From Pseudarthrobacter sp. NS4 (GTDB lineage Bacteria; Actinomycetota; Actinomycetes; Actinomycetales; Micrococcaceae): 64,000 bases of DNA. The stretch is taken from the NCBI RefSeq assembly GCF_024758005.1, contig NZ_CP103288.1:3844001-3908000 (forward strand), written 5' to 3'. The notes under the pieces were generated by a model. It did not search any database. It was not told the DNA's origin and saw only the letters and a list, made by a program, of their open reading frames with translations. The translations under genes were made by a program, and so were the position numbers. Positions within the stretch are counted from its first letter, which is position 1. Every line of letters begins with the position of its first letter. Below, in pieces: positions 13,589 to 46,781 of this stretch.

Positions 13589-14545
13589 TTAGATGCTCAG
13601 GAGCTTGGCGGCATTTCCTGATGCAAGGGCTTCCTTGACTGAGGGTTCAATTTCGACGGTTCGAAGAAACTCGGTGGCAGTTTCTGCGGATTGATAGGGG
13701 TAATCGACGGAGAACAGTACTCTGTCGCTGCCCATGGCCTGAAGGGCACAGTGCAGTGGCGGAGCGCTCTCAACCCCGGCCGTGGTGACGTACATGTTCT
13801 CGCGGATGTAGTCAGAGGGTTTCCGTGCCAGCGGTGAGGCGTGCTGGAGTACGGCCCATCGGTCATCGAGACGGTCCAGCGTGAAGGGCAGGCCCTCTCC
13901 CATATGGCCCAGCAGGATTTGAGCTTCGGGGTGCCTGTCGAAGACGCCGCCGGCGACAAGGCGCAGTGCGTGGGATGCAGTTTCAAAGCCCCAGCCCCAT
14001 ACTGGTCCGGCGAGCTCGGGGTAGCCCTGAAGCGGCGGCAGTGGTGCCGGGGAGAAGGCCGGGTGAATGTAAAGCGGGACTTTTAGGTTGGACAGCTCCG
14101 CCCAGAGAACGTCGAAACGGGGGTCATCGAGATAGGCGCCGGCGGTGTGGCCGTTGACCAGGACGCCTTTGAACCCGAGGTCCAGGACGACTCGTTTGAG
14201 TTCGTTCACGGCTTCTTGTGGGTCCTGGGTGGGAAGGGCGCCGAAGGCTGCAAATCTTTCGGGGTGTTCACGTACTACTTTGGCCATCACGTCATTGCTT
14301 CGCCTGGCTTTTATAACAGCGTCTGCGCTGCCGCTTTCGCCCTGGACTCCGGGGGTTGTCAGGGACAGGACCTGAACATCGATTCCGGCTGCGTCCATTT
14401 CGGGGAGACGGATGTTCTCGACGTCGCTGATCCTTTGGGCTATGGATTCGGCGAAATCGGGTACGAAGGCTCCTCCTTCACCTTTGCTGTAGTCGGGTGT
14501 GGCGAAGTGTTCTTCGAGGGTTATGACCCTCATTCCGTTGATCAT
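13589..14545 (-). CDS. Amidohydrolase-2 family non-oxidative aromatic decarboxylase
   Basis: The 318-residue protein belongs to the COG2159 branch of the amidohydrolases that contains gamma-resorcylate, 2,3-dihydroxybenzoate and 5-carboxyvanillate decarboxylases. Expected metal and active-site motifs are present: LEEHFA (Glu11, His13), PLYIHP (His), LLGHMGEGLPF (His) and FSVDYPYQ (Asp). It would remove CO2 from a hydroxylated benzoate without oxidation, or run in reverse. The ATG at 14545 lies 3 bp past the MFS stop with an AGGGAA site across that stop, so it is coupled to the transporter. It is the last gene of the leftward ring-cleavage operon. A 4-oxalomesaconate hydratase of the LigJ type is less likely, because the LEEHF and SVDYPYQ motifs fit the decarboxylases better. 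Confidence 0.85.
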   Translation of the reverse strand: MINGMRVITLEEHFATPDYSKGEGGAFVPDFAESIAQRISDVENIRLPEMDAAGIDVQVLSLTTPGVQGESGSADAVIKARRSNDVMAKVVREHPERFAAFGALPTQDPQEAVNELKRVVLDLGFKGVLVNGHTAGAYLDDPRFDVLWAELSNLKVPLYIHPAFSPAPLPPLQGYPELAGPVWGWGFETASHALRLVAGGVFDRHPEAQILLGHMGEGLPFTLDRLDDRWAVLQHASPLARKPSDYIRENMYVTTAGVESAPPLHCALQAMGSDRVLFSVDYPYQSAETATEFLRTVEIEPSVKEALASGNAAKLLSI

Positions 14546-14548
14546 GAC

Positions 14549-15829
14549 TTAGTTCCCTACTGTCTTAAGGTTGTTGAGGGTTTCCTGGCCGTTGCGGATA
14601 CCGACGACAACGAGCAGTGCGAGGATCATGCCGATTGCGGCGACGACCGCGAACACGTAGAAGTTCCACTGTGCCGGCATTCCTGCCCCGAGGATGACGC
14701 CGCCGATGAGCGGGCCCATGATTGCGCCGAGGCGTCCGACGCCCAATGCCCAGCCCAGGCCGGTACCGCGAATTTCGGCGGGGTAGATGGAACTGATGAA
14801 GACGTTGACGAGGATTTGTGTGCCTAGGGTGCCGGCGCCTGCCAGGGCGACCAGGGCGAACATGACGGCGGTAGGCGGGCCGAAGCTGAGTGCCGTGACT
14901 GCGAGGCAGCCAATGGTGAAGAGGGCAGCAACGACCGGCTTGGTCCGGCCCTTGTCGGCTATGCGGGCGGCGATGAGCGTTCCGATGACGGCACCAACGT
15001 TGAGCGTTACCGCGAAGAAGAGGGCGGACTGCAGGTTGTATCCCATGCCGATCATGATGGTTGGCAGCCAGTTGACCATGCCGAACACCAGGAGCAGGCT
15101 ACAGAACTGGACGCCCCACGCGAGCAGGGTGTTGCGCGCCAGTCCGTCTTTGAACAGTGCGGAGATTGACGATGCGGCGCTCTTTCGCGTGACTGTTTGG
15201 CCTTCCGCTGTCAGGGATTTTGCTGCCAGCCAGGCCTCCGACTCAGGCAGGAGCTTGAAGGCTACCGGGACGAGCAGAATGGGCAGGGCCCCTACCCAAA
15301 AGAGTGAACGCCAGCCGAGCGTCGGGATGAGCGCCAGAGCGAGAACCCCCGCAAGGATGCCTCCGGCGAGGTAGCCGAAGAGGGTGAAGGAGTAGGCCAT
15401 GGCTTTGCGGCGCTCGGGAGCGATCTCAATAACGAGTGCCGTGACCGTTGGAAACAGTGCGCCCAGACCGAGCCCACCGATGATTTTTGCGATCTCGAAT
15501 ACTTGTGCGTTGGGAGCTGCGGCGCATACAGCCATGGCGATGGAGAACCATGCCAAGCTGGCGACGACGACGCTCTTACGGCCGAAGCGGTCAGAGAGAG
15601 TACCGGCTGTTAGTGCGCCGATGAGCATTCCGACCAGGGTCAGAGAGGCGATGCGACCGGCTACAGCAGGCGTGATGCCCCACCCGGGTTCGGCGATCAG
15701 GGAGGGGATGACGTTGCCAAAGACGATGAGGTCGTAGCCGTCGAAGAGAATCATGGCGGCGCAGATCCCTATGACGAGACCGCTGCCCTTTCCTGCGGCT
15801 GGAGCCAGCGGTGCTGGTTGGGTTGACAT
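14549..15829 (-). CDS. MFS transporter, aromatic acid:H+ symporter (AAHS) type
   Basis: The 426-residue protein has 12 hydrophobic segments. The signature FDGYDLIVFGNVIPSL in helix 1 is the AAHS D-Y-D motif of PcaK/BenK/MhpT relatives. SDRFGRKSVV follows in the loop between helices 2 and 3. It should bring an aromatic carboxylate into the cell with protons. ATG 15829 (MSTQP) with GAAAGG upstream is preferred over a longer frame to 15862. It lies between leuD and the decarboxylase in the leftward operon, so its cargo is probably the substrate of the cluster. Confidence 0.9.
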   Translation of the reverse strand: MSTQPAPLAPAAGKGSGLVIGICAAMILFDGYDLIVFGNVIPSLIAEPGWGITPAVAGRIASLTLVGMLIGALTAGTLSDRFGRKSVVVASLAWFSIAMAVCAAAPNAQVFEIAKIIGGLGLGALFPTVTALVIEIAPERRKAMAYSFTLFGYLAGGILAGVLALALIPTLGWRSLFWVGALPILLVPVAFKLLPESEAWLAAKSLTAEGQTVTRKSAASSISALFKDGLARNTLLAWGVQFCSLLLVFGMVNWLPTIMIGMGYNLQSALFFAVTLNVGAVIGTLIAARIADKGRTKPVVAALFTIGCLAVTALSFGPPTAVMFALVALAGAGTLGTQILVNVFISSIYPAEIRGTGLGWALGVGRLGAIMGPLIGGVILGAGMPAQWNFYVFAVVAAIGMILALLVVVGIRNGQETLNNLKTVGN

Positions 15830-15857
15830 GGTGTTGCCTTTCTCAGGGTTTGGGGGC

Positions 15858-15891
15858 GGCAATCGCGGTACGTCGGCGGGCCGTGATTGCC
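15858..15891 (-). other. Inverted repeat between leuD-like gene and MFS gene
   Basis: GGCAATCGCGG (15858-15868) and CCGTGATTGCC (15881-15891) pair with one mismatch. The hairpin lies inside the operon, in the largest gap between its genes, and may tune expression of the transporter and decarboxylase. It could also be a dyad operator for an internal promoter. Confidence 0.45.
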
Positions 15892-15995
15892 AGGTAGGTC
15901 ACTTCAGGACCCCGGACCCGGGTGGGCCTGAGGTTTTGCTTAGGGTTGGAAATGTCGGTGGGATAGGTGTTTAGAGTGCAATGTTCGTGGGGTTT

Positions 15996-16625
15996 TCATC
16001 TGGCCTCAGCCCCGTCATGGTGGGGCTGCTGCAGCGTGGTGGTCGGCAGCCAACTGCTGCGTTGTTGTTCAAAGGATGTGATCAACGCGGCGCTTTGGAG
16101 CGTCAGGTCGATGTCATCAAGTCCGTTGAGCAAACGCCAGCGGGTGTCTTGGTCGAGCTGGAAGGAAATGACCAGCTGGCCGGCGTGTATGGTCCCGTTT
16201 TCCAGGTCGACCCGGAGCGCAAGGTCCGGTGTGTCCTCCACTATGTCCAAGAGCCGGTTCACGTCCTCTTCGTCGACCTGGGCCGCCAGCAGCCCGGCCT
16301 TGCCGGCATTTCCGCGGAAGATATCGGCAAACCGTGGAGAAATCACCACTTGGAAGCCGTAATCCATCAGCGCCCACACGGCGTGTTCCCGGGATGATCC
16401 GGTCCCGAAGTCCGGACCGGCGATGAGGATCTTCGCGGTAGCGAACACGGGGTGGTTGAGAACGAAGTCGGGCTTTGTTCGCCAGGCGGCAAAGAGCCCG
16501 TCTTCGAAGCCGGTCCGGGTGATCCGCTTCATGTAGCTGGCCGGGATGATCTGGTCGGTGTCGACGTTGGTGCGCCGCAAAGGAGCGCCGGTGCCTTCGA
16601 TAACCCTGACCGCTTGGATTGGCAC
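15996..16625 (-). CDS. leuD: 3-isopropylmalate dehydratase small subunit (LeuD-like)
   Basis: The 209-residue protein is a canonical Leu[30 protein letters not shown], the swivel-domain motif [17 protein letters not shown], and the C-terminal DDIDLTLQ region. LeuD is one half of a hydro-lyase that needs the iron-sulfur large subunit LeuC, yet no leuC is present in the window. It sits 9 bp after ligA and ahead of the MFS gene, inside an aromatic ring-cleavage operon rather than a leucine operon. It may join a distant LeuC or homologue to hydrate or isomerise a tricarboxylic ring-cleavage product such as an oxalomesaconate-type acid. That role is inferred. Its fold and family are certain. Confidence 0.9.
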
Positions 16626-16634
16626 TGCCGGTTC

Positions 16635-17000
16635 CTAGAGTGAGACCGAGGGGTAGTCGCGGCCCAGCCAATGGTCCAGCTTCTGAGCGAACTCCCGCTG
16701 GAACGACAGGGGACCGTGTTCCTTTGTGTAGTCCTCTTCGAAGACGGCGACGAAGAGGGTCAGGGAGAGGAAGAAGTGCGCACCGTTTTCGAACAGCCAC
16801 ACGTAGTCGTAGTTGACCAGTGCCTGGCGCTCTTCGTCGGTGAAGGACAGCCAGGACGTCTTCTCGACGCTGTTGAGCCAGATGCCGACTTCCTTTTCCC
16901 AGTCCGCGAGTGCTCTGGCAGCGTCTTCCTTATAGCGTGCTACCCATAGGGGGTCACGGTCCACGGTGTACAGGAACTTGTTGACGTAGTACTTGCTCAC
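16635..17000 (-). CDS. ligA: Protocatechuate 4,5-dioxygenase alpha-type subunit (LigA)
   Basis: The 121-residue protein is the small all-helical LigA-type subunit that caps the active site of class III extradiol dioxygenases. It begins SKYYVNKFLYTVDRDPLW and contains FTDEERQALVNYDYVWLFENGAHFF (residues about 55-80), matching the LigA domain. The start is GTG 17000, overlapping the ligB stop (GTGA). The frame is open upstream to 17288, but that portion is only the shadow of ligB. The two subunits should form an alpha2-beta2 enzyme in the cytoplasm. Confidence 0.87.
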   Translation of the reverse strand: MSKYYVNKFLYTVDRDPLWVARYKEDAARALADWEKEVGIWLNSVEKTSWLSFTDEERQALVNYDYVWLFENGAHFFLSLTLFVAVFEEDYTKEHGPLSFQREFAQKLDHWLGRDYPSVSL

Positions 17001-17938
17001 GCTGAGACTCCTTCCTTGGCGGTGACCGGTCCTGCGCTGCCGCCGGAAACGGCTGCTGCCTGCTCGGCGGCGGCGGCCTGCTTTTCGTTTTTGTTGGGGT
17101 ACCAGGTCATGAACATTTCCCTGGTGTGGTAGAGATCCAACTGGTCGACGTAGTCGGCGTTTTCGGGTCCGGCGATGCCCATCATCAGGATCAGGTCCAT
17201 GAATCCGTGGGTGGCGTTGCCGGCGCCGGACATGGATTCGTGGGTGACGTTTTCGAGGATGGCTTCGATGTTGCCGGTGGAGAGCCATTCGATCGCCTGG
17301 CGGTCAAATTCGGGGTCGGGCCCGTGTTCGCCGAACTGGCGGGGGCCGCCGAGTTCCAGGGACAGGTGCCCCGTTCCGACCGCTGCGATTTTTTTGTCGG
17401 TCGGGTATTCGTCGATGACCTGGCGGATGGCGCGGCCGAGGTCCCAGAACCGTTTCGGGGAGGGCAGCGGCGGAGCGAAGATGTTCGTGTAGATCGGGAT
17501 CACGGGCAGGTCAGCGTCGGGGCGGACGGTGATGATCGGGCAGATGATGGAGTGGTCGATTTTCAGTTCGTGGCTGAAGGAGAAGTCGAAGCCGCGGTCC
17601 ATGAGGCCCTGGTGCATGAAGTTGGAGAAGGCGACGTCCCCGTCGAGGACGTACTTGGGGATCCCGAATTCGCGCTCTTCGTTGTAGAAGGTGGCGTCGT
17701 ACTTTTCCTGCTTGCCGATCATGAACGTTGGGTAGTTATCCAGGAAGAACTGGTGGAAATGGTCGGCGCCGACCATGACCAGGATGTCGGGTTCTGCTGC
17801 GGTGAGAGTTTCCCGGTAGGCCTCGACTTTGCGTTTCCACTCGTCGGCCTGGGGCATCCGTTCTTCCGGCGGCGCGGTGGTGGCCTTGAGGTAGAACGGG
17901 TGGTGGGTGCTGGCCAGTACGGCTGTGAGTTCAGCCAT
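16997..17938 (-). CDS. ligB: Class III extradiol ring-cleavage dioxygenase catalytic subunit (LigB)
   Basis: The 313-residue protein is the Fe(II)-dependent catalytic beta subunit that inserts O2 next to a catechol-type diol. Residues expected from LigB are in place: His12 (STHHPF), His60 (GADHFH) and Glu234 (THES) as iron ligands, and His191 (VGTGHLS) as the acid/base. The C-terminal 25 residues are an Ala-rich tail. Family members cleave protocatechuate, gallate, methylgallate or related hydroxybenzoates. The substrate here is unknown, but the nearby flavin hydroxylase and decarboxylase point to a hydroxylated benzoate. It lies between the citryl-CoA-lyase-like gene and ligA in the leftward operon. 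Confidence 0.88.
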   Translation of the reverse strand: MAELTAVLASTHHPFYLKATTAPPEERMPQADEWKRKVEAYRETLTAAEPDILVMVGADHFHQFFLDNYPTFMIGKQEKYDATFYNEEREFGIPKYVLDGDVAFSNFMHQGLMDRGFDFSFSHELKIDHSIICPIITVRPDADLPVIPIYTNIFAPPLPSPKRFWDLGRAIRQVIDEYPTDKKIAAVGTGHLSLELGGPRQFGEHGPDPEFDRQAIEWLSTGNIEAILENVTHESMSGAGNATHGFMDLILMMGIAGPENADYVDQLDLYHTREMFMTWYPNKNEKQAAAAEQAAAVSGGSAGPVTAKEGVSA

Positions 17939-18015
17939 TGCATCTCCTTTGATTTTTGCCGGCGTGCTCGTGGAGCGGCCGGGTTTGGCTGCGGGCCGCT
18001 CGGGCCCTGCTGGTT

Positions 18016-18846
18016 TTAGTTTTCGTCCGGTGCTGTGGGTGAGTGCGGGTCGACGTAGACGGCGTTCCGGTCCACCGCCATGTAGACGTCCATGCCGATC
18101 GGGTTCCGCCGTTCCTCAGCGATTTGCCCGAGCAGGCCCGCTGCCCGTGCCAGCAGTGCGAATCCTCGCAGCAGGTCGGTCGGCAGGCCGAGATCGGCCA
18201 GGGCGGCACCGCAGACTCCGGCGCCGTTGAGGGGGAGTTTTCGGCCGAGGGCTTTTTCGCTCATCCGGCCGATGGCCTCGAAAAGGCGCAGGTGCGGCCC
18301 GCGCAGGCCTTCCTCTTCGGCGATACCGATCAGCACCGGCGTTCGGGGATCCTGCACCTTGTGGTTCGGATGGCCCAGCCCCGGAACGAATTTGCCTGCG
18401 GACCGCTGGGCATTGATCGCACCGAGTGCGAGGTCATCCCATCCGGCCTCGGTGTCCGGGAGGTCCCCATCATGGGCGGCGAGGGTGGCGGCGAGGAACT
18501 GGCCGCAGTCCTCGGTGACGCCGAGGAACCGTGAGCCTCCACCGAGCAGGCCGGCGGCCATGGCTCCCTGCAGGGAATCCGGGGCGCTGAGGTACGTGAG
18601 CCTCGCGGCGATTGCTGTGGGCGTGAAGCCGTGGTCAGCCAGTGCTACCAGGACGGATTCAAAGACGCGCAGTTCCCCGGCCGTGGGGCGGCGCATCGCA
18701 ACGAGCCAGAAGGCGAGTTCCCCGAAGCTGACTTTGCCCATCAGGTCCGCGGTGAGGTCCTGGCCCAGGAGACGGATTTCTGTGGCGGTGGATGTTCCCA
18801 GTGAAGTAGGGAACTGCAGCTTTTCCTGCTCGAGGGTGGGGTTCAT
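18016..18846 (-). CDS. Citryl-CoA-lyase-like protein (citrate synthase fold)
   Basis: The 276-residue protein resembles the short, single-domain citrate synthase relatives annotated as citryl-CoA lyase. It has the core motifs VPGLGHPNHKVQDPRTPVL (the His-rich loop equivalent to the synthase active site) and LPLNGAGVCGAALADLGLP, then a C-terminal segment with EERRNPIGMDVYMAVDRN. Known relatives cleave citryl-CoA to acetyl-CoA and oxaloacetate. Its start overlaps the CoA-transferase stop (ATGA), so a CoA ester made by the transferase is probably its substrate. In this cluster the substrate may be a hydroxy-tricarboxyl-CoA derived from ring cleavage rather than citryl-CoA. That is inference. Confidence 0.75.
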   Translation of the reverse strand: MNPTLEQEKLQFPTSLGTSTATEIRLLGQDLTADLMGKVSFGELAFWLVAMRRPTAGELRVFESVLVALADHGFTPTAIAARLTYLSAPDSLQGAMAAGLLGGGSRFLGVTEDCGQFLAATLAAHDGDLPDTEAGWDDLALGAINAQRSAGKFVPGLGHPNHKVQDPRTPVLIGIAEEEGLRGPHLRLFEAIGRMSEKALGRKLPLNGAGVCGAALADLGLPTDLLRGFALLARAAGLLGQIAEERRNPIGMDVYMAVDRNAVYVDPHSPTAPDEN

Positions 18847-20057
18847 GATGCTCCAGGGGTTGAGGTGGTCGGGACGGCGGCGGCGGCAAGCCAGGCACGG
18901 ATCTCTTCGGTGTGTTCGCCCAGCTCCGGCGGTGCCAGGTCGTACCGTGCCGGGGTTGCGGAGAACGTGATCGGGTTGCGCACGCCTGGAACGGTTTTGT
19001 CCCCGGAGCCGACCTGGACGACGGGCTGCAGCCCAAGTTTCCGGGCGTATTCAACGCCTTGTTTGATGGTATTGATGGGTCCGTTGGGCACGCCGGCTTC
19101 GTTCAGCTTCTCGAACCATTCTTCGGCGGACCGGGTCTTCAGTCGTTCCACCAGCAGGGGGCGGAGTTCTTCGCGGAGCCGGGTCCGGCCGGCGTTGTCG
19201 GCGAACCGTTCATCGTCGGCGAGTTCGGGCACGTCCAGTACGGCGCAGAGCTTGCGGAACTGGGCATTGTTACCGGCGGTGATGATCAGGTCATCGTCCT
19301 TGGTCGGAAGAGCTTCATAGGGGAACAGGCTCGGGTGGGCGTTACCCATCCTGAACGGTGTGACGCCGCCGGCCACATAGGCGGAGGTTTGATTGACGAG
19401 CCCGCTCATGGCAGAGGCCATGAGGCTCGTTTCAATGTTCTGCCCTTCACCTGTGCGGTCGCGATGGTGCAGGGCGGCGAGGATGCCGATCGTCGAATGC
19501 AGCCCTGCCACGACGTCGAAGACGCTGATGCCCGCACGGTAGGGTTCACCACTGGGGTCCCCGGTGAGGCTCATCAGCCCCGACATGGCCTGGACGATCA
19601 GGTCATAGCCGGGAAGGGCGGCGCCTTCGGCCGTGCCGAATCCACTGATGGAGCAGTAGATGACAGCCTCATTGCGTTCCCGCACCGAGCTGTAGTCCAG
19701 CCCGAACCGCTTCAGTCCGCCGGGCTTGAAATTTTCAATCACGACATCGGCGCGGGCGGCGAGCTCCTTGGCGGCGGCCAGGTCGTCCTCGTCCTTCAGG
19801 TTAAGCACGACGGACTTTTTGTTGCGGTTGATGGCCGAGTAATACGTCGAGACCCCGTCGGGGCGGACCGGCGGCACCCACGAACGCGTGTCGTCCCCGC
19901 CCGGGCTTTCAACTTTGATGACTTCCGCGCCCATGTCTGCCAGGAGCATGGTGGCATACGGGCCGGCCAGCACACGGGAAAAGTCGGCGATGACGATCCC
20001 ATCGAGGGGGCGGGCGACCGGGACCTCGGCGGCCTCCGGCTTGGGATTGCTTATCAC
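18843..20057 (-). CDS. CaiB/BaiF family (class III) CoA-transferase
   Basis: The 404-residue protein carries the class III signature (VIADFSRVLAGPYATMLLAD), AEVIKVESPGGDDTR, and the catalytic-Asp region LPGYDLIVQAMSGLMSLTG. It would transfer CoA from a donor such as succinyl-CoA or acetyl-CoA to a di- or tricarboxylate. It starts at GTG 20057 with GAAAGGAACCACC upstream and is the first gene of the leftward ring-cleavage operon, coupled to the citryl-CoA-lyase-like gene. A palindromic operator lies just upstream. A CoA-transferase is not a normal member of protocatechuate or gallate meta-cleavage operons. Confidence 0.9.
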   Translation of the reverse strand: MISNPKPEAAEVPVARPLDGIVIADFSRVLAGPYATMLLADMGAEVIKVESPGGDDTRSWVPPVRPDGVSTYYSAINRNKKSVVLNLKDEDDLAAAKELAARADVVIENFKPGGLKRFGLDYSSVRERNEAVIYCSISGFGTAEGAALPGYDLIVQAMSGLMSLTGDPSGEPYRAGISVFDVVAGLHSTIGILAALHHRDRTGEGQNIETSLMASAMSGLVNQTSAYVAGGVTPFRMGNAHPSLFPYEALPTKDDDLIITAGNNAQFRKLCAVLDVPELADDERFADNAGRTRLREELRPLLVERLKTRSAEEWFEKLNEAGVPNGPINTIKQGVEYARKLGLQPVVQVGSGDKTVPGVRNPITFSATPARYDLAPPELGEHTEEIRAWLAAAAVPTTSTPGAS

Positions 20058-20086
20058 GGTGGTTCCTTTCGGCTTCGAACTCAGTA

Positions 20087-20103
20087 TGTCCGTCTAGCGG
20101 ACA
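20087..20103. promoter_or_regulatory. Palindromic operator TGTCCG-N5-CGGACA (left site)
   Basis: TGTCCGTCTAGCGGACA lies 30 bp upstream of the CoA-transferase start and 83 bp upstream of the IclR start. A near-identical site lies before the flavin hydroxylase at 21079. The pair is best explained as binding sites of the IclR-family protein encoded between them. Possible promoter elements for the leftward operon (TTGACA at 20158-20153 and an A/T-rich TATAAA at 20130-20125) lie just outside the site, though their spacing is long. Confidence 0.7.
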
Positions 20104-20185
20104 ACCGTCCGAAGATGTGGGATATTTATAGAATGAGCTTTTGGCGCGGATGTGTCAAGGCTCACCAGACAACAGGAGGTGCGTG

Positions 20186-20989
20186 ATGGCGCAGCGGGGT
20201 ACAGGTCCGGACTTTATCGAGGCATTGGCGCGCGGATTGGATGTCCTGCGCTGCTTTTCACCAGAACAGCCGCACATGAGCCTGAGTCAGGTGGCTCAGT
20301 CGGCGGATCTGGCGCGCCCCACGGCCCGGCGCATCCTGCTGACCCTGGAGGAGCTCGGTTATGTCAGGGCAACCAATGGCGTCTTCACTCTGATGCCAAA
20401 GGTCTTGGAACTGGGCATGGCCTACATCGGAGCGCTCGGGCTATGGGACATGGCCCGGCCCCACCTGGAAGACCTCGTGGGGAAGACCGGCGAGTCCTCA
20501 TCCATGGCTCAGCTGGATGGTTCGGACATCATCTATGTTGCCCGGGTGGCTGTGCCTAAGCTGATCGCACTCAGGGTTGATGTCGGGACAAGATTCCCGG
20601 CGATGCTGACCTCCCAGGGCAAAGTGCTCCTCGCAGCCCTTGCCCCTGAGGATGCATTGCGGATCCTGTCCCAACCCTCCCGATCAACCGTCCCGGCACC
20701 GAGCCATCCGGATGATGAACGTGTCCTGCGGATTCTCGCCAGCGTGCGCCGGCAGGGCTGGGCACTGGCGGACGAAGAACTGGCCCCAGGTGTCCGCTCC
20801 ATCTCTGTGGGGGTGCGCGACGGAGAAGATGTGGTCCGCGCGTCAATGAACATCACTGTCCACGCCCAGGAAACGAGTCTCGACAAGCTGACCGGTGAAT
20901 ACCTGCCCCTGCTTCAAGAGGCAGCGGCTGCAACCGAAAGCGACTGGACGCGCTGGCAGTCCCGGCCGGTAAAGTCCCTGAAACCCTAG
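20186..20989 (+). CDS. IclR-family regulator of the ring-cleavage cluster
   Basis: The 267-residue protein has an N-terminal winged helix (ALARGLDVLRCFSPEQPHMS, SQVAQSADLARPTARRILLT) and a C-terminal ligand-binding IclR domain (DVGTRFPAMLTSQGKVLLAAL, SISVGVRDG). It resembles the PcaR/PobR branch that senses aromatic acids. ATG 20186 with AGGAGGT at 20174-20180 is the clear start. It lies between the leftward CoA-transferase operon and the rightward hydroxylase, with a matching palindrome before each. It probably controls both in response to the substrate or a ring-cleavage intermediate. Confidence 0.9.
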   Translation: MAQRGTGPDFIEALARGLDVLRCFSPEQPHMSLSQVAQSADLARPTARRILLTLEELGYVRATNGVFTLMPKVLELGMAYIGALGLWDMARPHLEDLVGKTGESSSMAQLDGSDIIYVARVAVPKLIALRVDVGTRFPAMLTSQGKVLLAALAPEDALRILSQPSRSTVPAPSHPDDERVLRILASVRRQGWALADEELAPGVRSISVGVRDGEDVVRASMNITVHAQETSLDKLTGEYLPLLQEAAAATESDWTRWQSRPVKSLKP

Positions 20990-21025
20990 GCCCTGTCGGT
21001 AATACGCCGTCCAGCGGTGTGACTC

Positions 21026-21095
21026 TTGACACCCCCGTTCGCCGTCTGTCACTATCAAACCCAGAAGCAACGTACACGTGTCCGCTAGGCGGACG
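21026..21095 (+). promoter_or_regulatory. Promoter and operator of the flavin hydroxylase
   Basis: A -35-like TTGACA (21026-21031) is followed after 18 bp by CACTAT (21050-21055). Downstream lies the palindrome TGTCCGC-TAG-GCGGACG (21079-21095), the second copy of the proposed IclR site. Its place after the start region fits repression. Confidence 0.6.
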
Positions 21096-21144
21096 CCAGC
21101 CTCTTCCTTCGGGAACAGCAACGGGACCAGAAAGACGACCACTC

Positions 21145-22773
21145 ATGAGCCAGTCAACGGGCAAGGACGCCCATGCCACCGCAACCCACACCGAGGACTT
21201 CGATGTAGTCATCGTCGGCTACGGACCGGTCGGGCGGCTGCTCGCCCTGCAGCTGGGCCGCCGCGGCCATCGCGTGGCCGTTATCGAACGCCAGGAGAGG
21301 GTCTACCCGCTCCCCCGCGCAGTACATTTCGACGACGAAATTGGGCGCATCTTCCAGTCCGTGGGCGCCGGGCCGAACATCATGGCCGAGGTTGTGGAGC
21401 CCTACGACGACTTCTACGAATGGCGCAACGCGAACCACGAGACACTTCTGCACGTGGACTGGCGCGGAGCCGGCCCGTCCGGCTGGAATGTCAGCAACTT
21501 CTTCTACCAGCCCGGAATGGAAAACTTCCTCGACGCCAAGGTTATCGACCTCCCCTCGGTGACCATCCTGCGCGGGTGGGAAGCGATCACTCACACCGAA
21601 ACGGAAGACCGGGTCCTTTTGCAGATCCGGAACGCTGCCGATGAACGTCGGGAACTGAACGCCCGGTACGTCATCGGGGCCGACGGCGCCAACAGCAAGG
21701 TTAGGGACTGGATCGGCACGCCGATGACAGATCTCGGTTACTTCCACGACTGGCTCGTCGTGGACCTTATCCCCATGACGCCGCTGCAGATCAGCCCTCC
21801 TGCCTCACAGTTCTGCGACCCCGCCCGGCCCACCACCGTCGTCCCCGGCGGGCCGGGGCGGCGGCGCTTTGAATTCATGCGCCTCGAACACGAGACCAAG
21901 GACGAACTGAACACCGAAAGCCGGGCCTGGGAACTCCTGGAGCCGTGGGGCGTCACACCCGAGACCGCCAAAATGGAACGCCACACCGTTTACACCTTTC
22001 AGGCCCGCTGGTGCGACCAGTGGCGCCGCGGCCGGCTGCTCCTGGCCGGAGACTCCGCCCACCTGATGCCGCCCTTCGCCGGGCAAGGCATGTGCTCTGG
22101 CCTGCGGGATGTAGCCAACCTCGAATGGAAGCTCGACCTGATCCTGCGGCAACTCGCACCCGATTCGCTGCTGGACAGCTACGGCCCGGAACGCTCCGAA
22201 CACGTCCGGCACTTCATCGACCGGTCCATGCAGCTCGGAGAAGTCATCTGCCTCACCGATCCCGACGCAGTGGCCAAGCGGGACGCAGCAATGGCAAAAG
22301 ACATCGCCGACGGCGCCTCGATTCCTCCCCGCCCGCTGCCCAAACTCGGTGACGGCCTGCACCGTGCCGACGCCGGCGGCGGCACGCTCTCCATCCAGGC
22401 CCCCGTCCAGGCCGGGGAAGGACAGACGCTCTTCGATGACGTCTTCGCCCCATCCGGGACACTGCTGCTCCGAAATGCCGATGCCCGTGCCCACCTTCCA
22501 GCAGACGCGGCCAGCGGCCTGACCGGGCTCGGATTCCAGATCATCGACTTCGGCTTGGAGCCCTCGGATACGACAGCAGTTGACGCCACCGGAGCCTACG
22601 GCCAATGGTTCGATGCCCTCGACGCCGACGCCGTCCTCATCCGTCCCGACTTCTACATCTACGGCGTCGCCGGGGTTGAAGGACTTCCCGCCTTGGTCCG
22701 GGACTTCCTCTCAGATCTCGGTGCACCCATCGAGACCATGAAGACACCCGGTCTCAACGCTGCCGCACTGTGA
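21145..22773 (+). CDS. FAD-dependent aromatic hydroxylase (MhpA-like)
   Basis: This 542-residue single-component flavoprotein monooxygenase uses NAD(P)H and O2 to hydroxylate a phenolic ring. It shows the FAD dinucleotide motif (VIVGYGPVGRLLALQLG), the DG motif (YVIGADGANSKVRDWIG) and the second FAD motif (LLAGDSAHLMPPFAGQGMCSGLRD). A C-terminal thioredoxin-like domain follows, typical of 3-(3-hydroxyphenyl)propionate hydroxylases. ATG 21145 is chosen; the upstream frame to 21019 runs through the promoter and operator. It overlaps the next gene by 4 bp. In this cluster it probably supplies the ortho-diol that LigAB opens. Whether the substrate is a phenylpropionate or a benzoate cannot be told. 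Confidence 0.87.
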   Translation: MSQSTGKDAHATATHTEDFDVVIVGYGPVGRLLALQLGRRGHRVAVIERQERVYPLPRAVHFDDEIGRIFQSVGAGPNIMAEVVEPYDDFYEWRNANHETLLHVDWRGAGPSGWNVSNFFYQPGMENFLDAKVIDLPSVTILRGWEAITHTETEDRVLLQIRNAADERRELNARYVIGADGANSKVRDWIGTPMTDLGYFHDWLVVDLIPMTPLQISPPASQFCDPARPTTVVPGGPGRRRFEFMRLEHETKDELNTESRAWELLEPWGVTPETAKMERHTVYTFQARWCDQWRRGRLLLAGDSAHLMPPFAGQGMCSGLRDVANLEWKLDLILRQLAPDSLLDSYGPERSEHVRHFIDRSMQLGEVICLTDPDAVAKRDAAMAKDIADGASIPPRPLPKLGDGLHRADAGGGTLSIQAPVQAGEGQTLFDDVFAPSGTLLLRNADARAHLPADAASGLTGLGFQIIDFGLEPSDTTAVDATGAYGQWFDALDADAVLIRPDFYIYGVAGVEGLPALVRDFLSDLGAPIETMKTPGLNAAAL

Positions 22774-23186
22774 CCACTTTCCCTGCCTCCGGCAGCGCCA
22801 CGGCGCTGCCGGAGATCCGCCACACGATCGAAGAATGCCTGGCCCGCTATACCCGGGCAATGGACAACCAAGAGCCGAAAACAGCCGCAACGCTGCTCGC
22901 CGACGCCGAACTGCACTTCAAAAACAACCCCCCAGTACAGGGCCGCCGCGACATCGCAGGGTTCTTCGCCTCCGTGTTTCCCAACCCATCGCGCACCCGG
23001 CATCTGATCAGCAACCTGACGATCGAGCCGGGCACGGACTGCATCGAATACAGAGCCATCTACCAGCGATGGTCCGTGGCTGATCCCACGGCTCCCGTCT
23101 GTGAAGCGCTTGGCCACTACACCGGCCGCTTTACCCCCGCTGCAGCCGGACTCATCTGGTCCGAGCATAGGGTGATCACAGACTAA
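22770..23186 (+). CDS. NTF2/SnoaL-like protein coupled to the hydroxylase
   Basis: The 138-residue protein has an N-terminal helix (IRHTIEECLARYTRAMDNQE), then LHFKNNPPVQGRRDIAGFFASVF and a beta sheet carrying RTRHLISNLTIEPG and IEYRAIYQRWSV. This layout is typical of SnoaL_4-type NTF2 domains, which often accompany aromatic oxygenases as isomerases, dehydratases or helper proteins. It begins at GTG 22770 within the hydroxylase stop (GTGA), so the two are made together. No catalytic role can be assigned. Confidence 0.75.
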   Translation: MTTFPASGSATALPEIRHTIEECLARYTRAMDNQEPKTAATLLADAELHFKNNPPVQGRRDIAGFFASVFPNPSRTRHLISNLTIEPGTDCIEYRAIYQRWSVADPTAPVCEALGHYTGRFTPAAAGLIWSEHRVITD

Positions 23187-23650: not shown

Positions 23651-24838
23651 CTAGGCGGAGGGCCAGCCGGTGTATGCCTCGGCGAGGTAGGCCTGGCCGT
23701 GACGTGAGGACACCACGGAGTTGAGTTCGCCGAGTTGGCGTGCGCGGGAGAAGTCATCGGCGTCCGCTGGGGTGTGCAGCATCGAGGTCATCCAGTAGGA
23801 GAACTGCTGTGCTTTCCACACGCGGTCGAGGGCTCGGTCGCTGTAGGAATCCAGGAGCGCCGTGGAGCCGGTGCTGTAGTAGCTTTCCAAGCCCTCGAAG
23901 AGCACCTTTACGTCGTGGATGGCCAGGTTCAGGCCCTTGGCGCCGGTCGGCGGGACGGTGTGCGCGGCGTCCCCGGCCAGGAACAGCTTGCCGTGCCGCA
24001 TCGGAGTGTGCACGAAGCTGCGGAACTTCAGGACCATCTTGTCGATGACCGGACCCTCCTTCAGCTCGAAGCCGTTGCCGTTGACCCGGCTCCGGAAGGC
24101 CTCCCAGATGCGATCTTCGCTCCAGTTGTTCACGTCCTCGTTCGGGTCGCACTGGAAGTACATCCGCTGCACCGTCTCGGTGCGCTGGCTGATCAGCGCG
24201 AAGCCGTTGGCGGAGTTGGCGTAGATGAGTTCGTCGGCGCTGCGGGGAGCTTCGGCCAGGATGCCGAACCAGGCGAACGGGTATTCGTGGAAGTACCACT
24301 TGCGGTGGGCCTCGGGGATCTGGAAGCGGCAGTGGCTGCGCGAGCCGTCGGCCCCGGCGATGAAATCGGCCTGCAGTTCGTAGTCAATGCCGTCGGCATC
24401 GGTGAACCAGACCTTGGGGGACCCTTCCAGGTCGTGGACGGTGGTGTCCGTGACGCTGTACCGGACGTCACCGCCGTCGGCCTCGCGCCGTGCGGCGAGG
24501 TCCATGAACACGTCGGTCTGTGGGTAGAGCCAGACCGACTCCCCCACCAGTTCCTTGAAGTCGATGCGGTGGTTTTCGCCGTTGAAACGCAGTTCGATGC
24601 CGTCGTGCCGGTCGCCTTCACGCAACACCCGGTCCGAAACGCCGCTGTTCACCAGCATGTTCACCGTTCCTTGTTCGAGGATGCCCGCGCGGACCGTCTC
24701 GGAGATCTCCTGGCGGCTGCGGATTTCGATCACCGTGGATTCGATGCCGGCCTTGGCCAGCAGATGGGAGAGCATTAGACCCGCGGGGCCGGCGCCCATG
24801 ATGGCGACTTGGGTTTTAATGACTTTGCGTGCTGCCAC
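23651..24838 (-). CDS. pobA: 4-hydroxybenzoate 3-monooxygenase
   Basis: The 395-residue flavoprotein converts 4-hydroxybenzoate to protocatechuate with NAD(P)H and O2. It matches PobA along its whole length: VAIMGAGPAGLMLSHLL (FAD), ETVRAGILEQGTVNML, FIAGADGSRSHCRF (DG motif) and GDAAHTVPPTGAKGLNLAIHD. The length is normal. GTG 24838 with GAGGAAC upstream is the start. Its IclR regulator is encoded 93 bp upstream in the same direction and a 4-hydroxybenzoate-type transporter is divergent from that, giving a complete uptake-hydroxylation module. A duplicated fragment of its 3' end lies at 29.25 kb. Confidence 0.95.
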   Translation of the reverse strand: MAARKVIKTQVAIMGAGPAGLMLSHLLAKAGIESTVIEIRSRQEISETVRAGILEQGTVNMLVNSGVSDRVLREGDRHDGIELRFNGENHRIDFKELVGESVWLYPQTDVFMDLAARREADGGDVRYSVTDTTVHDLEGSPKVWFTDADGIDYELQADFIAGADGSRSHCRFQIPEAHRKWYFHEYPFAWFGILAEAPRSADELIYANSANGFALISQRTETVQRMYFQCDPNEDVNNWSEDRIWEAFRSRVNGNGFELKEGPVIDKMVLKFRSFVHTPMRHGKLFLAGDAAHTVPPTGAKGLNLAIHDVKVLFEGLESYYSTGSTALLDSYSDRALDRVWKAQQFSYWMTSMLHTPADADDFSRARQLGELNSVVSSRHGQAYLAEAYTGWPSA

Positions 24839-24931
24839 GATGTTCCTCGCTTCGTTGCGGGGCCCTCGGCATGAAAACTGGGGCCGACGTTACTTCTGCC
24901 TAACAGTGTGCGCCGGAGAGTGTGAACGGCG

Positions 24932-25726
24932 TTACACCGATTCCATTGAACGGAAACCTGTTCCGGGCTCCATTTCGCCCAGCCGCCGCGCGATGCCCCT
25001 GGCGGCAGTCTGCAGCGCAGGGACCAGCGCCTGCAGGCGCACCTCTTTCAACGGAACGACGACGCCGAGAGCGGCCACCGCGCGCTTCTTGCCATCAAGC
25101 ACCGGAACCGCGATCCCCCAGGTGTCAGGGTCGATGACGCCGGCCAGCTGCGCGTACCCCAAGTGGTTGGCTTCGGCGAGCAGTGCGCGGAGGTTCTCCT
25201 CCGTGACCTTTCCGGCAGGATCCTTGAACTGCCCGAGGTACTCGGCCTGCACGGACGGCAGCTGATAGGACATCAGTGCCAGACCGGCGGAGGAGATATG
25301 AACTGCGAGGCGGCCCGCGATCTGCGCGCGGTTGGCCACGGAGCCGCGGCGGGAGAGCCGCTCGATAAACAGGGCCTCCCAGCCGTCAAGCACTGCCAGA
25401 TTCACGTTCTGGTTCAGCACGTGTTGGATGTCTTCCATGAACGGCATCGCCGCCTGCCGCAATGCCAGCGTCGGTGAATTGCGGTTCACGATCTCCCAAA
25501 GCCGCAACCCCAGCCGTACGGAACCGCCGGGAGTGGTTTCCAGGAGACCGTGCGCGGCTAGTTGCCGGACCAGCCGGTGCGCTGTAGTCAGCGGAAGCTG
25601 CGCGCGGGCGGCGAGCTCGGATAGTTGCAGGACGGAGACGCCTTCGGGGAAAGCGGCGATAACGCGAACCACGCGGTCCACCACAGAATCACCGGAGTCG
25701 GAATTGGCCACAGTTGCTTCTTCCAT
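24932..25726 (-). CDS. IclR-family regulator of pobA (PobR-like)
   Basis: The 264-residue protein has an IclR winged helix (VVRVIAAFPEGVSVLQLSEL, ARAQLPLTTAHRLVRQL) and an IclR effector domain (RGSVANRAQIAGRLAVHISS, WGIAVPVLDGKKRAVAALGV). It lies between pobA, in the same direction, and the divergent MFS gene. That arrangement is typical of an activator or repressor responding to 4-hydroxybenzoate. The inference rests on context; other aromatic acids are possible. Confidence 0.85.
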   Translation of the reverse strand: MEEATVANSDSGDSVVDRVVRVIAAFPEGVSVLQLSELAARAQLPLTTAHRLVRQLAAHGLLETTPGGSVRLGLRLWEIVNRNSPTLALRQAAMPFMEDIQHVLNQNVNLAVLDGWEALFIERLSRRGSVANRAQIAGRLAVHISSAGLALMSYQLPSVQAEYLGQFKDPAGKVTEENLRALLAEANHLGYAQLAGVIDPDTWGIAVPVLDGKKRAVAALGVVVPLKEVRLQALVPALQTAARGIARRLGEMEPGTGFRSMESV

Positions 25727-25844
25727 TGAATGGTTTGGGTTGTCCTAGATTACATCGTCAGGTGATACAAATCTCATGTCGGGCTTCGCTTGCACCGGCC
25801 ACTCCCTTTCATTCCCACCTTTGCAACCGGACAATGAGGTTCCT

Positions 25845-27209
25845 ATGACTACGCTCCCGGCCGCCCGTCGTTCCCAATGGCCCGTTTGGCTTTGCTGGCT
25901 CGCCATGGTTCTGGACGGATTCGATTTGGTGGTGCTCGGCACCGTCATTCCCACTCTCATCAAGACCCAGGATCTTGGTTTCGACGCTGTCGGGGCCACG
26001 TATGCAGCCACTATCTCGCTGGTTGGCGTGGGCATCGGCGCGCTGTTCATCGCGCCGCTTTCCGACCGCTTCGGACGCCGCCGCCTGCTCGTGGCCTGCG
26101 TGGCATGGTTCTCACTGTTCACTCTCGCTGTGGTGTTTGCCCCCAACGTGGCCGTGTTTGGCATCTTCCGGCTGCTGGCTGGCGTTGGGCTGGGGGCCTG
26201 CCTGCCTGCGGCCTTGGCATACATGAATGACTACGCACCGACCGGCACAGCAGGGAAATCCACCACGCGGACGATGACCGGATACCACGTGGGCGCCGTC
26301 GCCACCGCGTTTCTGGCGATCCTCGTGGTCCCTGACTGGCGCATCATGTTTGTGGTCGGCGGGGTGGCCGGATTCGTTCTGGTGCCGTTCCTGTGGTTCC
26401 GGCTCCCGGAAACTCTGCCTCCTGTCCAGACGGAACACGGCAAGGACGCCCGGGATGTAGCGGCTCCAGCGGCCCCTGCGCCCGCTTCGGTCCACACTGC
26501 GCGGACACACCGCCCGATTGCCGTCCCGGCAGCCGAGCCGGAAGCCGCGCCCGCATCGCTCGTGCCGGCGGATGCCTCCGGTGAGCGTGCCAGCTTCCGC
26601 GACCTCACGAAAAAGCCCTACCCGCTGGTTGCGCTGGGCATTGCCGTGGCATCCTTCATGGGGCTCCTGCTCGTGTACGGCCTCAACACCTGGCTGCCCC
26701 AGCTCATGTCCTCGGCCGGTTACACCGTGAGCACCGGCCTGGTCCTGTTGCTCGTGCTAAACGTGGGCGCCGTCGTGGGGCTGATCATTGCCGGCATCCT
26801 GGCCGACAAGCACGGGACCAAGAAGATCGTGTTGCTGTGGTTCGGCCTCTCCGCCGTGTTCCTCGCCGTGCTCAGCGTCAAGATCCAGAACGAGTTCCTG
26901 CTTAACGCTGCCGTCTTCGTCACCGGCGTCTTCGTCTTCAGCTCGCAGGTGCTGGTCTACGCTTGGGTCAGCCAGCTCTTCCCGCCCCGGCTCCGCGGAA
27001 CAGCGCTCGGCTTCGCGGCCGGCGTGGGTCGTCTTGGCGCCATCATGGGCCCGGCCGTCACCGGATCGCTCGTGTCCGCCGGCATCGCCTACCCTTGGGG
27101 CTTCTACGTCTTCGGCGCCGCGGCCGTGCTGGCGGTCATTGCCCTGGCGACCGTCCCCCACACCATCACCCCGGCACCGAACCAGGCACCCGCCATCGGG
27201 AAATCCTGA
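25845..27209 (+). CDS. MFS aromatic acid transporter (PcaK-like)
   Basis: The 454-residue, 12-helix protein has the AAHS motif LDGFDLVVLGTVIPTL in helix 1, SDRFGRRRLLVA in the 2-3 loop, and GFAAGVGRLGAIMGP in the second half. The central cytoplasmic loop (about residues 205-250) is unusually long and Ala/Pro-rich. ATG 25845 (MTTLP) with GAGG upstream is preferred over a longer frame to 25776. Divergence from the IclR regulator and proximity to pobA suggest 4-hydroxybenzoate or protocatechuate as cargo. The 205 bp after it hold no recognisable gene. Confidence 0.9.
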   Translation: MTTLPAARRSQWPVWLCWLAMVLDGFDLVVLGTVIPTLIKTQDLGFDAVGATYAATISLVGVGIGALFIAPLSDRFGRRRLLVACVAWFSLFTLAVVFAPNVAVFGIFRLLAGVGLGACLPAALAYMNDYAPTGTAGKSTTRTMTGYHVGAVATAFLAILVVPDWRIMFVVGGVAGFVLVPFLWFRLPETLPPVQTEHGKDARDVAAPAAPAPASVHTARTHRPIAVPAAEPEAAPASLVPADASGERASFRDLTKKPYPLVALGIAVASFMGLLLVYGLNTWLPQLMSSAGYTVSTGLVLLLVLNVGAVVGLIIAGILADKHGTKKIVLLWFGLSAVFLAVLSVKIQNEFLLNAAVFVTGVFVFSSQVLVYAWVSQLFPPRLRGTALGFAAGVGRLGAIMGPAVTGSLVSAGIAYPWGFYVFGAAAVLAVIALATVPHTITPAPNQAPAIGKS

Positions 27210-46330: not shown

Positions 46331-46389
46331 CGGGGACCTTTCGTTTGGCTCGCATATCCTCAGCGCGGCCATCAACGGGACCCGCCACC

Positions 46390-46415
46390 GAATATAGTAT
46401 TGCGTTTCGAATTTC
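46390..46415. promoter_or_regulatory. Operator-like site before the GH3-uronate operon
   Basis: This A/T-rich 26-bp segment on the minus strand (GAAATTCGAAAC at one end, CTATATTC at the other) matches 19 of 26 positions of the perfect palindrome at 50255-50280 before the second importer. It lies about 60 bp upstream of the GH3 start, as the other lies about 68 bp before its gene. A regulator of hemicellulose use probably binds both. Confidence 0.6.
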
Positions 46416-46781
46416 ATCGTAGCATCTTATTGGCAATCGGTTTCCAGTTTCGCGGCCCTAATTTTGTCCCGCTTCTACAGGAGCCCTCCGGTCCCGCTCG
46501 CACGCCATGGGTGCCCGCGGGATGCCCGAGACGGTGAACCTGCCCGCAGTCGATGAACATCCCCAGGTAGGCACAAATCGCACTGCCTCAGGCGCAGCCG
46601 TCACAGGGCACGGCAGGAGCGCCCGAAGAGGGCGCCCTGACGTGGCTGGAGTTTCATCATGCCGTTCCCGAAAGCAGGGGCACGCCTTAGTGCACCGGGG
46701 CTGAACCAGGGCCCTGCACGCTGCGTCGAATTCGGTTGCTACAAACGAGAAGCCAGTCCCCTGGGTTGGTTCCCTCCCATT
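46416..46781. other. Intergenic stretch between GH3 and KstD-like genes
   Basis: No convincing gene is seen. Short G/C-rich inverted repeats occur near 46625 (CGCCC-GAAGA-GGGCG), which could end transcription of the KstD-like gene whose stop is at 46782. The region also holds the upstream part of the GH3 promoter. Confidence 0.4.

Follow-up and report, generated by a model that had tools for sequence, protein, structure and literature searches.

Gene organization of the cluster

We analysed a window of 64 kb from the one-contig genome (4.44 Mb) of Pseudarthrobacter sp. NS4, in which a CaiB/BaiF-type CoA-transferase and a short citrate-synthase-fold lyase adjoin a two-subunit ring-cleavage dioxygenase of the LigAB type. 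On the minus strand the genes follow each other in the order CaiB, lyase, LigB, LigA, LeuD, aromatic acid:H+ symporter (AAHS) family transporter and decarboxylase, with spacings of −4, 77, −4, 9, 133 and 3 nucleotides (nt). Genes for an IclR regulator, an MhpA-like hydroxylase and a SnoaL-like protein are oriented divergently. This arrangement, a leftward operon facing a regulator and a hydroxylase, confirms the description given in the first-pass annotation of this DNA.

The class III CoA-transferase CaiB (18843..20057, minus strand, 404 residues) matches PF02515 with 404 bits. The lyase (18016..18846, minus strand, 276 residues) is annotated as citryl-CoA lyase; it scores 275 bits with NF004868, which is above the cut-off, and 86 bits with citryl-CoA lyase 6hxp. 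LigB (16997..17938, minus strand, 313 residues) resembles the large subunit of class III dioxygenases (PF02900, 103 bits; gallate dioxygenase 3wku, 73 bits), and the gene for the LigA-like small subunit (16635..17000, minus strand, 121 residues) overlaps ligB by 4 nt. The remaining genes of the operon encode an accessory LeuD paralogue without LeuC (15996..16625, minus strand; NF002458 and TIGR00171, both above cut-off), the AAHS transporter, a member of the MFS (14549..15862, minus strand; best match TIGR00895 with 291 bits, under the cut-off of 418.6), and an amidohydrolase-family decarboxylase of the gamma-resorcylate decarboxylase type (13589..14545, minus strand; gamma-resorcylate decarboxylase 2dvt, 246 bits; PF04909). 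On the plus strand lie the IclR regulator of PcaR/PcaU/PobR type (20141..20989; TIGR02431, 248 bits, cut-off 284.8), the MhpA-like FAD hydroxylase (21019..22773; NF004829, 587 bits, above cut-off; PF01494) and the small SnoaL-like protein, whose gene overlaps that of the hydroxylase (22770..23186; PF13577, 42.9 bits).

A scan of the window from 13 to 23.3 kb revealed no promoter-like sites and 16 terminator-like sites, where 7.8 are expected; minus-strand terminator-like sites were absent from the gaps between the operon genes, which is a weak test. The genes of the usual LigAB or gallate lower pathways are missing among the cluster genes scanned, as had been stated before. No aldolase of the LigK/GalC type, which we take to belong to the RraA family, is linked to the cluster; the three RraA-family matches of the genome are all outside the window, at 4.10–4.35 Mb. 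A scan of the ten cluster proteins for family membership revealed neither a PcaIJ transferase nor a PcaF thiolase.

Conservation of the module

A scan with LigB identified 443 relatives, and locus counts refer to the best-scoring 80. Genes were counted by tblastn of representatives (E <= 1e-12, at least 35% of the query), since open reading frame calling by GC frame gave antisense frames at some loci; some contigs are short. LigA is present at all 80 loci, CaiB at 75, the lyase at the same 75 and IclR at 73. Relatives with 95–99% identity to LigB carry the names Arthrobacter, Paenarthrobacter and Pseudarthrobacter. Minimal operons, made up of IclR, lyase, CaiB, LigB, LigA and transporter genes only, occur at L012, L022, L027 and L034; by reading, the transporters are of Liv type in L012, L027 and L034 and of MFS type in L022. 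In four of the five genomes whose LigB locus has no CaiB and lyase, no lyase match was found at 1e-20, and four of these five loci (L046, L048, L064, L077) revealed no clear substitute on reading.

The linkage was also seen in the 394 genomes of the window's class. Strong LigB matches (E < 1e-140) were found in 25 of them, with a lyase at most 5 kb away in 23; one of the other two has the lyase on another contig, and the last has no strong lyase (E <= 1e-98). Strong lyase matches number 45 in 44 of the genomes, 22 of them not near a strong LigB, and lyase genes of this type occur in Rhizobiales, too. The corresponding search around genome G399 found strong LigB in one of 385 genomes (G399 itself), which gives no linkage statistic for that class.

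CaiB, the lyase and LigAB are a conserved module, linked in two phyla. The first-pass annotation had placed CaiB and the lyase in a ring-cleavage pathway and had proposed a survey of co-occurrence; the counts given above uphold this placement, and the outcome named there as refuting it, a lack of co-occurrence in other genomes, did not arise. With good confidence, given this linkage, we expect CaiB and the lyase to act on the ring-fission product.

The ring-cleaving dioxygenase LigAB

LigB is the only member of its family matched in the whole genome. Its closest relative among solved structures is gallate dioxygenase (3wku), and for the LigAB pair these are DesB gallate dioxygenase and LigAB. 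The GGxSH motif contains a His which is presumably an active-site residue of LigB and GalA; this position is Leu194 in all 81 aligned rows, and His191, three residues earlier, is equally invariant. The third iron ligand, a Glu, aligns to position 244, which is His in 68 of the 81 rows, the alignment being weak in that stretch. Our own idea that His244 replaces the Glu of the iron triad is weakened by this incomplete conservation.

The LigA-like protein scores under the cut-off of the Pfam LigA family and gave a moderate Z in a model comparison. That its gene is a chance open reading frame was rejected on the basis of this comparison and of its position next to LigB in 80 of 80 loci.

By record title the loci were split into alphaproteobacterial and other ones, with 41 and 40 rows in the case of LigB (one record titled Marinicella being put in the first group). 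Median identities between the two groups are 75% for LigB, 60% for LigA, 35% for the lyase and 32% for CaiB. LigB and LigA thus differ much less across the groups than the lyase and CaiB do, so LigAB has probably moved between phyla, joining two old and distant CaiB/lyase stocks. LigAB is also plasmid-borne, with 12 plasmid records matched, five of which are typed as conjugative. Among the latter, pUSP2 of Aminobacter sp. MSH1 (L149) carries lyase, CaiB, LigB and LigA with transposases close by; its cluster also holds a CocE-like gene and a gene annotated as uroporphyrinogen decarboxylase family, which has 72–75% relatives in L056, L057, L058 and L066 (best Pfam match in L058: Meth_synt_2). 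At another locus (L071:8435-10861), an amidohydrolase and LigB share one stop-free reading frame, which may be a fusion or mere in-frame adjacency.

Exchange of LigAB for an intradiol dioxygenase

At eight loci, the ring-cleaver beside CaiB and the lyase is an intradiol dioxygenase, which takes the place of LigAB. We fetched 16 of the 22 strong-lyase loci not near a strong LigB, and seven of these (L123, L127, L129, L133, L134, L137 and L139) contain an intradiol dioxygenase next to CaiB, lyase and IclR, assigned by Pfam in six cases and by tblastn (69%) in L133. LigAB is found in none of the seven intradiol loci, and the intradiol gene in none of the 80 LigB loci. Six of the seven share the amidohydrolase of the module (65–71%); L137 has a more distant one together with MhpA and a C–C hydrolase.

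The exchange is seen in place on two Rhodococcus plasmids, L150 (annotated) and L152, which share eleven genes in the same order with 54–89% identity (IclR 79, MhpA 85, C–C hydrolase 81, amidohydrolase 89, CaiB 88, lyase 82 and LeuD 61%). Between lyase and LeuD one plasmid has LigB–LigA and the other the intradiol gene. Next to the operon, both also encode an acyl-CoA-dehydrogenase-family protein and a flavin reductase (L150:12458-14869), which may form a second, two-component hydroxylase. A tree was built from 109 lyases (93 LigAB-, seven intradiol- and six ligase-linked, three other; L137 and L129 form long branches); in it the intradiol-linked rows fall among the LigAB-linked ones and need four changes. 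The bootstrap trees give the same number at their 5% and 95% marks, and the starred branches force at least three.

These data bear on the view that CaiB and the lyase are mere neighbours of LigAB, having no metabolic link to it. The lyase is indeed missing from five of the 80 LigB loci and from one of the 25 genomes, and of the 45 strong lyase matches about half (22) have no strong LigB in their vicinity. Such coincidence is very improbable, though, since the linkage is conserved in two phyla, genes of the window overlap by 4 nt, and seven of the 16 LigB-free loci that were fetched carry a ring-cleavage dioxygenase from a different family.

Most catechols yield different acids by intradiol and extradiol cleavage. 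The acids are identical if the cut bond joins two hydroxyl-bearing carbons, as in the cleavage of a vicinal triol by a gallate-type enzyme. Given the exchange in place, LigAB and the intradiol enzyme probably cut the same bond, located between two hydroxyl-bearing carbons. On plasmids of R. johnstonii and R. leguminosarum (L148, L153), LigAB occurs without CaiB and lyase, together with a cytochrome P450 and a fumarylacetoacetate-hydrolase-family gene; the latter would fit a beta-dicarbonyl (acylpyruvate) ring-fission product.

The closest annotated plasmid relative of the intradiol enzyme outside such clusters (51%, L151) adjoins an annotated maleylacetate reductase, which suggests that the enzyme of the cluster is probably of the hydroxyquinol type. 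No maleylacetate reductase match was found in the eight intradiol loci carrying CaiB and lyase. One may thus envisage a route from gamma-resorcylate via resorcinol and hydroxyquinol to maleylacetate, where CaiB and the lyase would convert maleylacetyl-CoA to acetyl-CoA and maleate, and LeuD with a LeuC would form malate. Such a route accounts jointly for decarboxylase, hydroxylase and LeuD, and both the reductase beside the 51% relative and its lack in the eight loci, as if CaiB and lyase had replaced it, speak in its favour. A normal extradiol cut by LigAB, however, gives no maleylacetate, so that hydroquinone-type cleavage by an altered active site would be needed, and LeuD is present in only 4 of 80 loci. 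We regard hydroxyquinol as rather unlikely. Several kilobases from the module, five Nesterenkonia loci (L033, L036, L037, L049, L050) contain a maleylacetate-reductase-like gene (41–46%), perhaps part of a neighbouring hydroquinone-type cluster.

Six other fetched loci (L122, L125, L126, L128, L131, L132) have no CaiB match and contain an acyl-CoA ligase (at least 62% to that of L128, itself PF00501), in L122 and L128 together with a mycothiol maleylpyruvate isomerase domain protein. The ligase-linked lyases represent a second, unexplained lyase pathway. Neither intradiol dioxygenase nor acyl-CoA ligase was detected by tblastn in three of the 16 loci.

CaiB and the citrate-synthase-fold lyase

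CaiB does not fall into a named equivalog, its best NCBIfam match being succinate-glutarate CoA-transferase with 381 bits (cut-off 750). Position 181, which we take to be the catalytic Asp, is conserved as Asp in all of the 76 aligned rows but one, which has a gap there. In the lyase, His72, His159, Arg168 and Arg234 are kept in all 76 aligned members; we assume that they correspond to the two catalytic His and the carboxylate-binding Arg of citrate synthase. The slot which presumably corresponds to the catalytic Asp375 of citrate synthase is occupied by Ala in 39 members (Ala209 in the window protein), by Ser in 37 and by Asp in none, and in the same alignment citryl-CoA lyase 6hxp and ATP-citrate lyase both have Asp. 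Ala was found in all 48 rows of a second alignment, which includes repeats, the window's own gene, seven intradiol loci and six ligase loci. Six more distant relatives have Thr (four), Val (one) and Asp (one, in a CaiB-linked row). The replacement is therefore the mark of a subgroup that extends beyond the ring-cleavage pathway.

Since all 76 members have Ala or Ser in this slot, we rejected an ordinary citryl-CoA lyase identity, and the name should not be carried over to this subgroup. The idea of the first-pass annotation that CoA activation precedes cleavage by the lyase gains support from the linkage; the chemistry assumed there does not carry over, as the reaction cannot simply be transferred from citrate synthase or citryl-CoA lyase given the missing Asp.

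The lyase could also be another kind of CoA-dependent C–C cleaving enzyme, acting for example on a product from a heteroaromatic ring or pyrogallol and releasing a thioester other than acetyl-CoA. The complete replacement of the Asp, the occurrence of relatives with CoA ligases at other loci and the amidohydrolase of many clusters, which is otherwise left unexplained, would agree with this, but the intradiol and GalA-like enzymes both indicate a carbocyclic polyphenol, and the His and Arg positions of oxaloacetate/acetyl-CoA chemistry are invariant. Different chemistry of this kind is accordingly considered unlikely.

Accessory genes

The most common accessory gene among the 80 loci encodes an ATZ/TRZ-type amidohydrolase (60 loci, e.g. 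L036:6185-7708; PF01979 and NF006056 ‘hypothetical protein’). Its metal-ligand positions are kept in 69 of 69 rows with at least 350 aligned residues, and the alignment windows printed contain no Glu at the place of HxxE, the motif we assumed for the check; a standard aminohydrolase is therefore doubtful. DoxX was found at 13 loci, the MhpA-like hydroxylase at six and a C–C hydrolase resembling 2,6-dihydroxypseudooxynicotine hydrolase at three. The decarboxylase of the window was found at none of the 80 loci at 1e-12, a looser limit giving a single 24% match (L081). The gamma-resorcylate-decarboxylase-like enzyme and the C–C hydrolase of some related clusters point to a carboxyl-free polyhydroxybenzene.

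LeuD is present at four of the 80 loci, in the window and at two plasmid loci. The window LeuD is 61% identical to the LeuD adjoining the LeuC of the genome at 2.595 Mb. The cluster has no dedicated LeuC; in the genome, aconitase-family matches above cut-off are confined to 1.82 Mb and 2.60 Mb, and that at 2.60 Mb adjoins its own LeuD. With four of 80 loci, LeuD was rejected as a core enzyme, and its earlier assignment as an obligate hydratase is not supported, the minimal operons having none.

That assignment belongs to a rival scheme in which a gallate-type ring is cleaved to oxalomesaconate, hydrated by LeuC/LeuD or another hydratase to 4-carboxy-4-hydroxy-2-oxoadipate, activated by CaiB and split by the lyase to acetyl-CoA and a 2,4-dioxo acid. 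Oxalomesaconate resembles aconitate and is in this respect a suitable compound for LeuCD. The similarity of LigB to gallate dioxygenase, the identical acid from intradiol and gallate-type cleavage of gallate and the minimal operons without hydroxylase are all in line with this scheme. Its product would need a ring carboxyl, however, and the decarboxylase and C–C hydrolase modules argue for a ring without one. Further, the oxalopyruvate formed would require more enzymes, the known aldolase route giving pyruvate and oxaloacetate directly; LeuD is confined to few loci and the lyase has no Asp. Gallate is thus an improbable substrate.

The cluster is adjoined (window 23651-27209) by genes for a 4-hydroxybenzoate 3-monooxygenase (NF006091, above cut-off), an IclR-like protein (by reading) and another member of the aromatic acid symporter family. 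Intradiol dioxygenase matches are found elsewhere in the genome at 1.95, 4.33 and 4.41 Mb. The window also contains a clear beta-glucuronidase (60694-62487; NF007538, 893 bits, cut-off 544) and a beta-xylosidase/glucosidase-like gene (43886-46417) that scores under its cut-offs.

Proposed pathway

The sequences show which genes are present, how far they are conserved, that ring-cleavers are exchanged and which residues differ; from this we infer every reaction given here. An aromatic acid would be imported by the AAHS transporter, decarboxylated by the gamma-resorcylate-decarboxylase-like enzyme and hydroxylated by the MhpA-like enzyme. LigAB, or the intradiol dioxygenase in relatives, would then cut the ring between two hydroxyl-bearing carbons, yielding a dicarboxylic beta-oxo acid. 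CaiB would transfer CoA onto this acid, and the lyase would split the CoA ester into acetyl-CoA and a C4 acid. As a general scheme for the lower pathway of a polyhydroxybenzene, by ring cleavage, activation by CaiB and cleavage by the lyase, we hold this to be somewhat more probable than its opposite.

The leading candidate for the ring, though still a tentative one, is 1,2,3,5-tetrahydroxybenzene, because it is the simplest ring which is both pyrogallol-like, as for LigAB/GalA, and hydroxyquinol-like, as for the intradiol enzyme. It would arise by ortho-hydroxylation of phloroglucinol. Its cleavage would give 2,4-dioxoadipate, a beta-oxo acid suited to CoA transfer and retro-Claisen cleavage and also an acylpyruvate, and hydrolytic retro-Claisen cleavage would lead to oxaloacetate and acetyl-CoA. 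More speculatively, the cluster may represent a bacterial central pathway of tetrahydroxybenzene (or hydroxyquinol), in which a citrate-synthase-fold enzyme without the Asp performs hydrolytic retro-Claisen cleavage and two unrelated dioxygenases are freely exchanged.

Several observations do not fit this proposal well. Tetrahydroxybenzene leaves LeuD without explanation, the amidohydrolase of 60 loci has no explained role, and the window decarboxylase is without counterpart in the 80 LigB loci, five of which have no CaiB or lyase. The minimal operons contain transporters and no hydroxylase, as would be expected rather for gallate or some other preformed acid. The missing catalytic Asp may mean that the lyase reaction releases no acetyl-CoA, and lyases with the same change stand beside a CoA ligase, without LigAB or intradiol enzyme, in 6 of the 16 fetched loci. 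Finally, the fumarylacetoacetate-hydrolase case is effectively one lineage, its genes being 98% identical. Sequence cannot decide among tetrahydroxybenzene, hydroxyquinol, which accounts better for LeuD through hydration of maleate, and gallate, which accounts better for the minimal operons.

Comparison with known systems

A literature search limited to open-licence papers gave no description of a module of CaiB, lyase and ring-cleaver, and none is contained in the available parts of PMC5789663, PMC8431788, PMC10512348, PMC12388069, PMC13094099, PMC12366328 and PMC12343579. For a large share of the lyases of this type, now annotated as citryl-CoA lyase, a function in the breakdown of aromatics is probable, and the annotation should not be relied on. 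As a natural experiment, the replacement of LigAB by the intradiol enzyme in place narrows the choice of substrates and opens the pathway to direct tests.

The gallate and protocatechuate 4,5-cleavage pathways (GalA-GalD-GalB-GalC; LigAB-LigC-LigI-LigJ-LigK) likewise use a two-subunit LigAB-type dioxygenase. The window differs from them in having CaiB and the lyase, and in the Leu at the GGxSH His of LigB. One study describes a cluster of the classical kind, with a 4,5-dioxygenase made of a single subunit, in a related Pseudarthrobacter (PMC8431788). With the beta-ketoadipate lower pathway the proposed route shares its logic, by which a ring-fission dicarboxylate first receives CoA and is then cleaved at a C–C bond, and a PcaR/PobR-type IclR regulator, whereas that pathway uses PcaIJ and the PcaF thiolase in place of a class III transferase and a citrate-synthase-fold lyase. 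The window lyase has the fold family and the two His and two Arg in common with citryl-CoA lyase, the C-terminal domain of ATP-citrate lyase and citrate synthase; lyases of its type differ by Ala or Ser at the Asp slot and by their linkage to aromatic ring cleavage. The gamma-resorcylate (gra) and hydroxyquinol pathways resemble the system in the decarboxylase type of the window and in the hydroxyquinol-type intradiol enzyme of its relatives, but differ from it by their maleylacetate reductase, which has no match in the eight intradiol loci with CaiB and lyase. The fungal 1,2,3,5-tetrahydroxybenzene pathway, finally, has as its central ring the leading candidate proposed here, and its proposed ring opener is a DUF3500 protein (PMC12388069). 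If tetrahydroxybenzene is indeed the substrate, the cluster would contribute a new C–C cleaving reaction of the citrate synthase fold and provide the bacterial counterpart to a pathway that is at present described from fungi.

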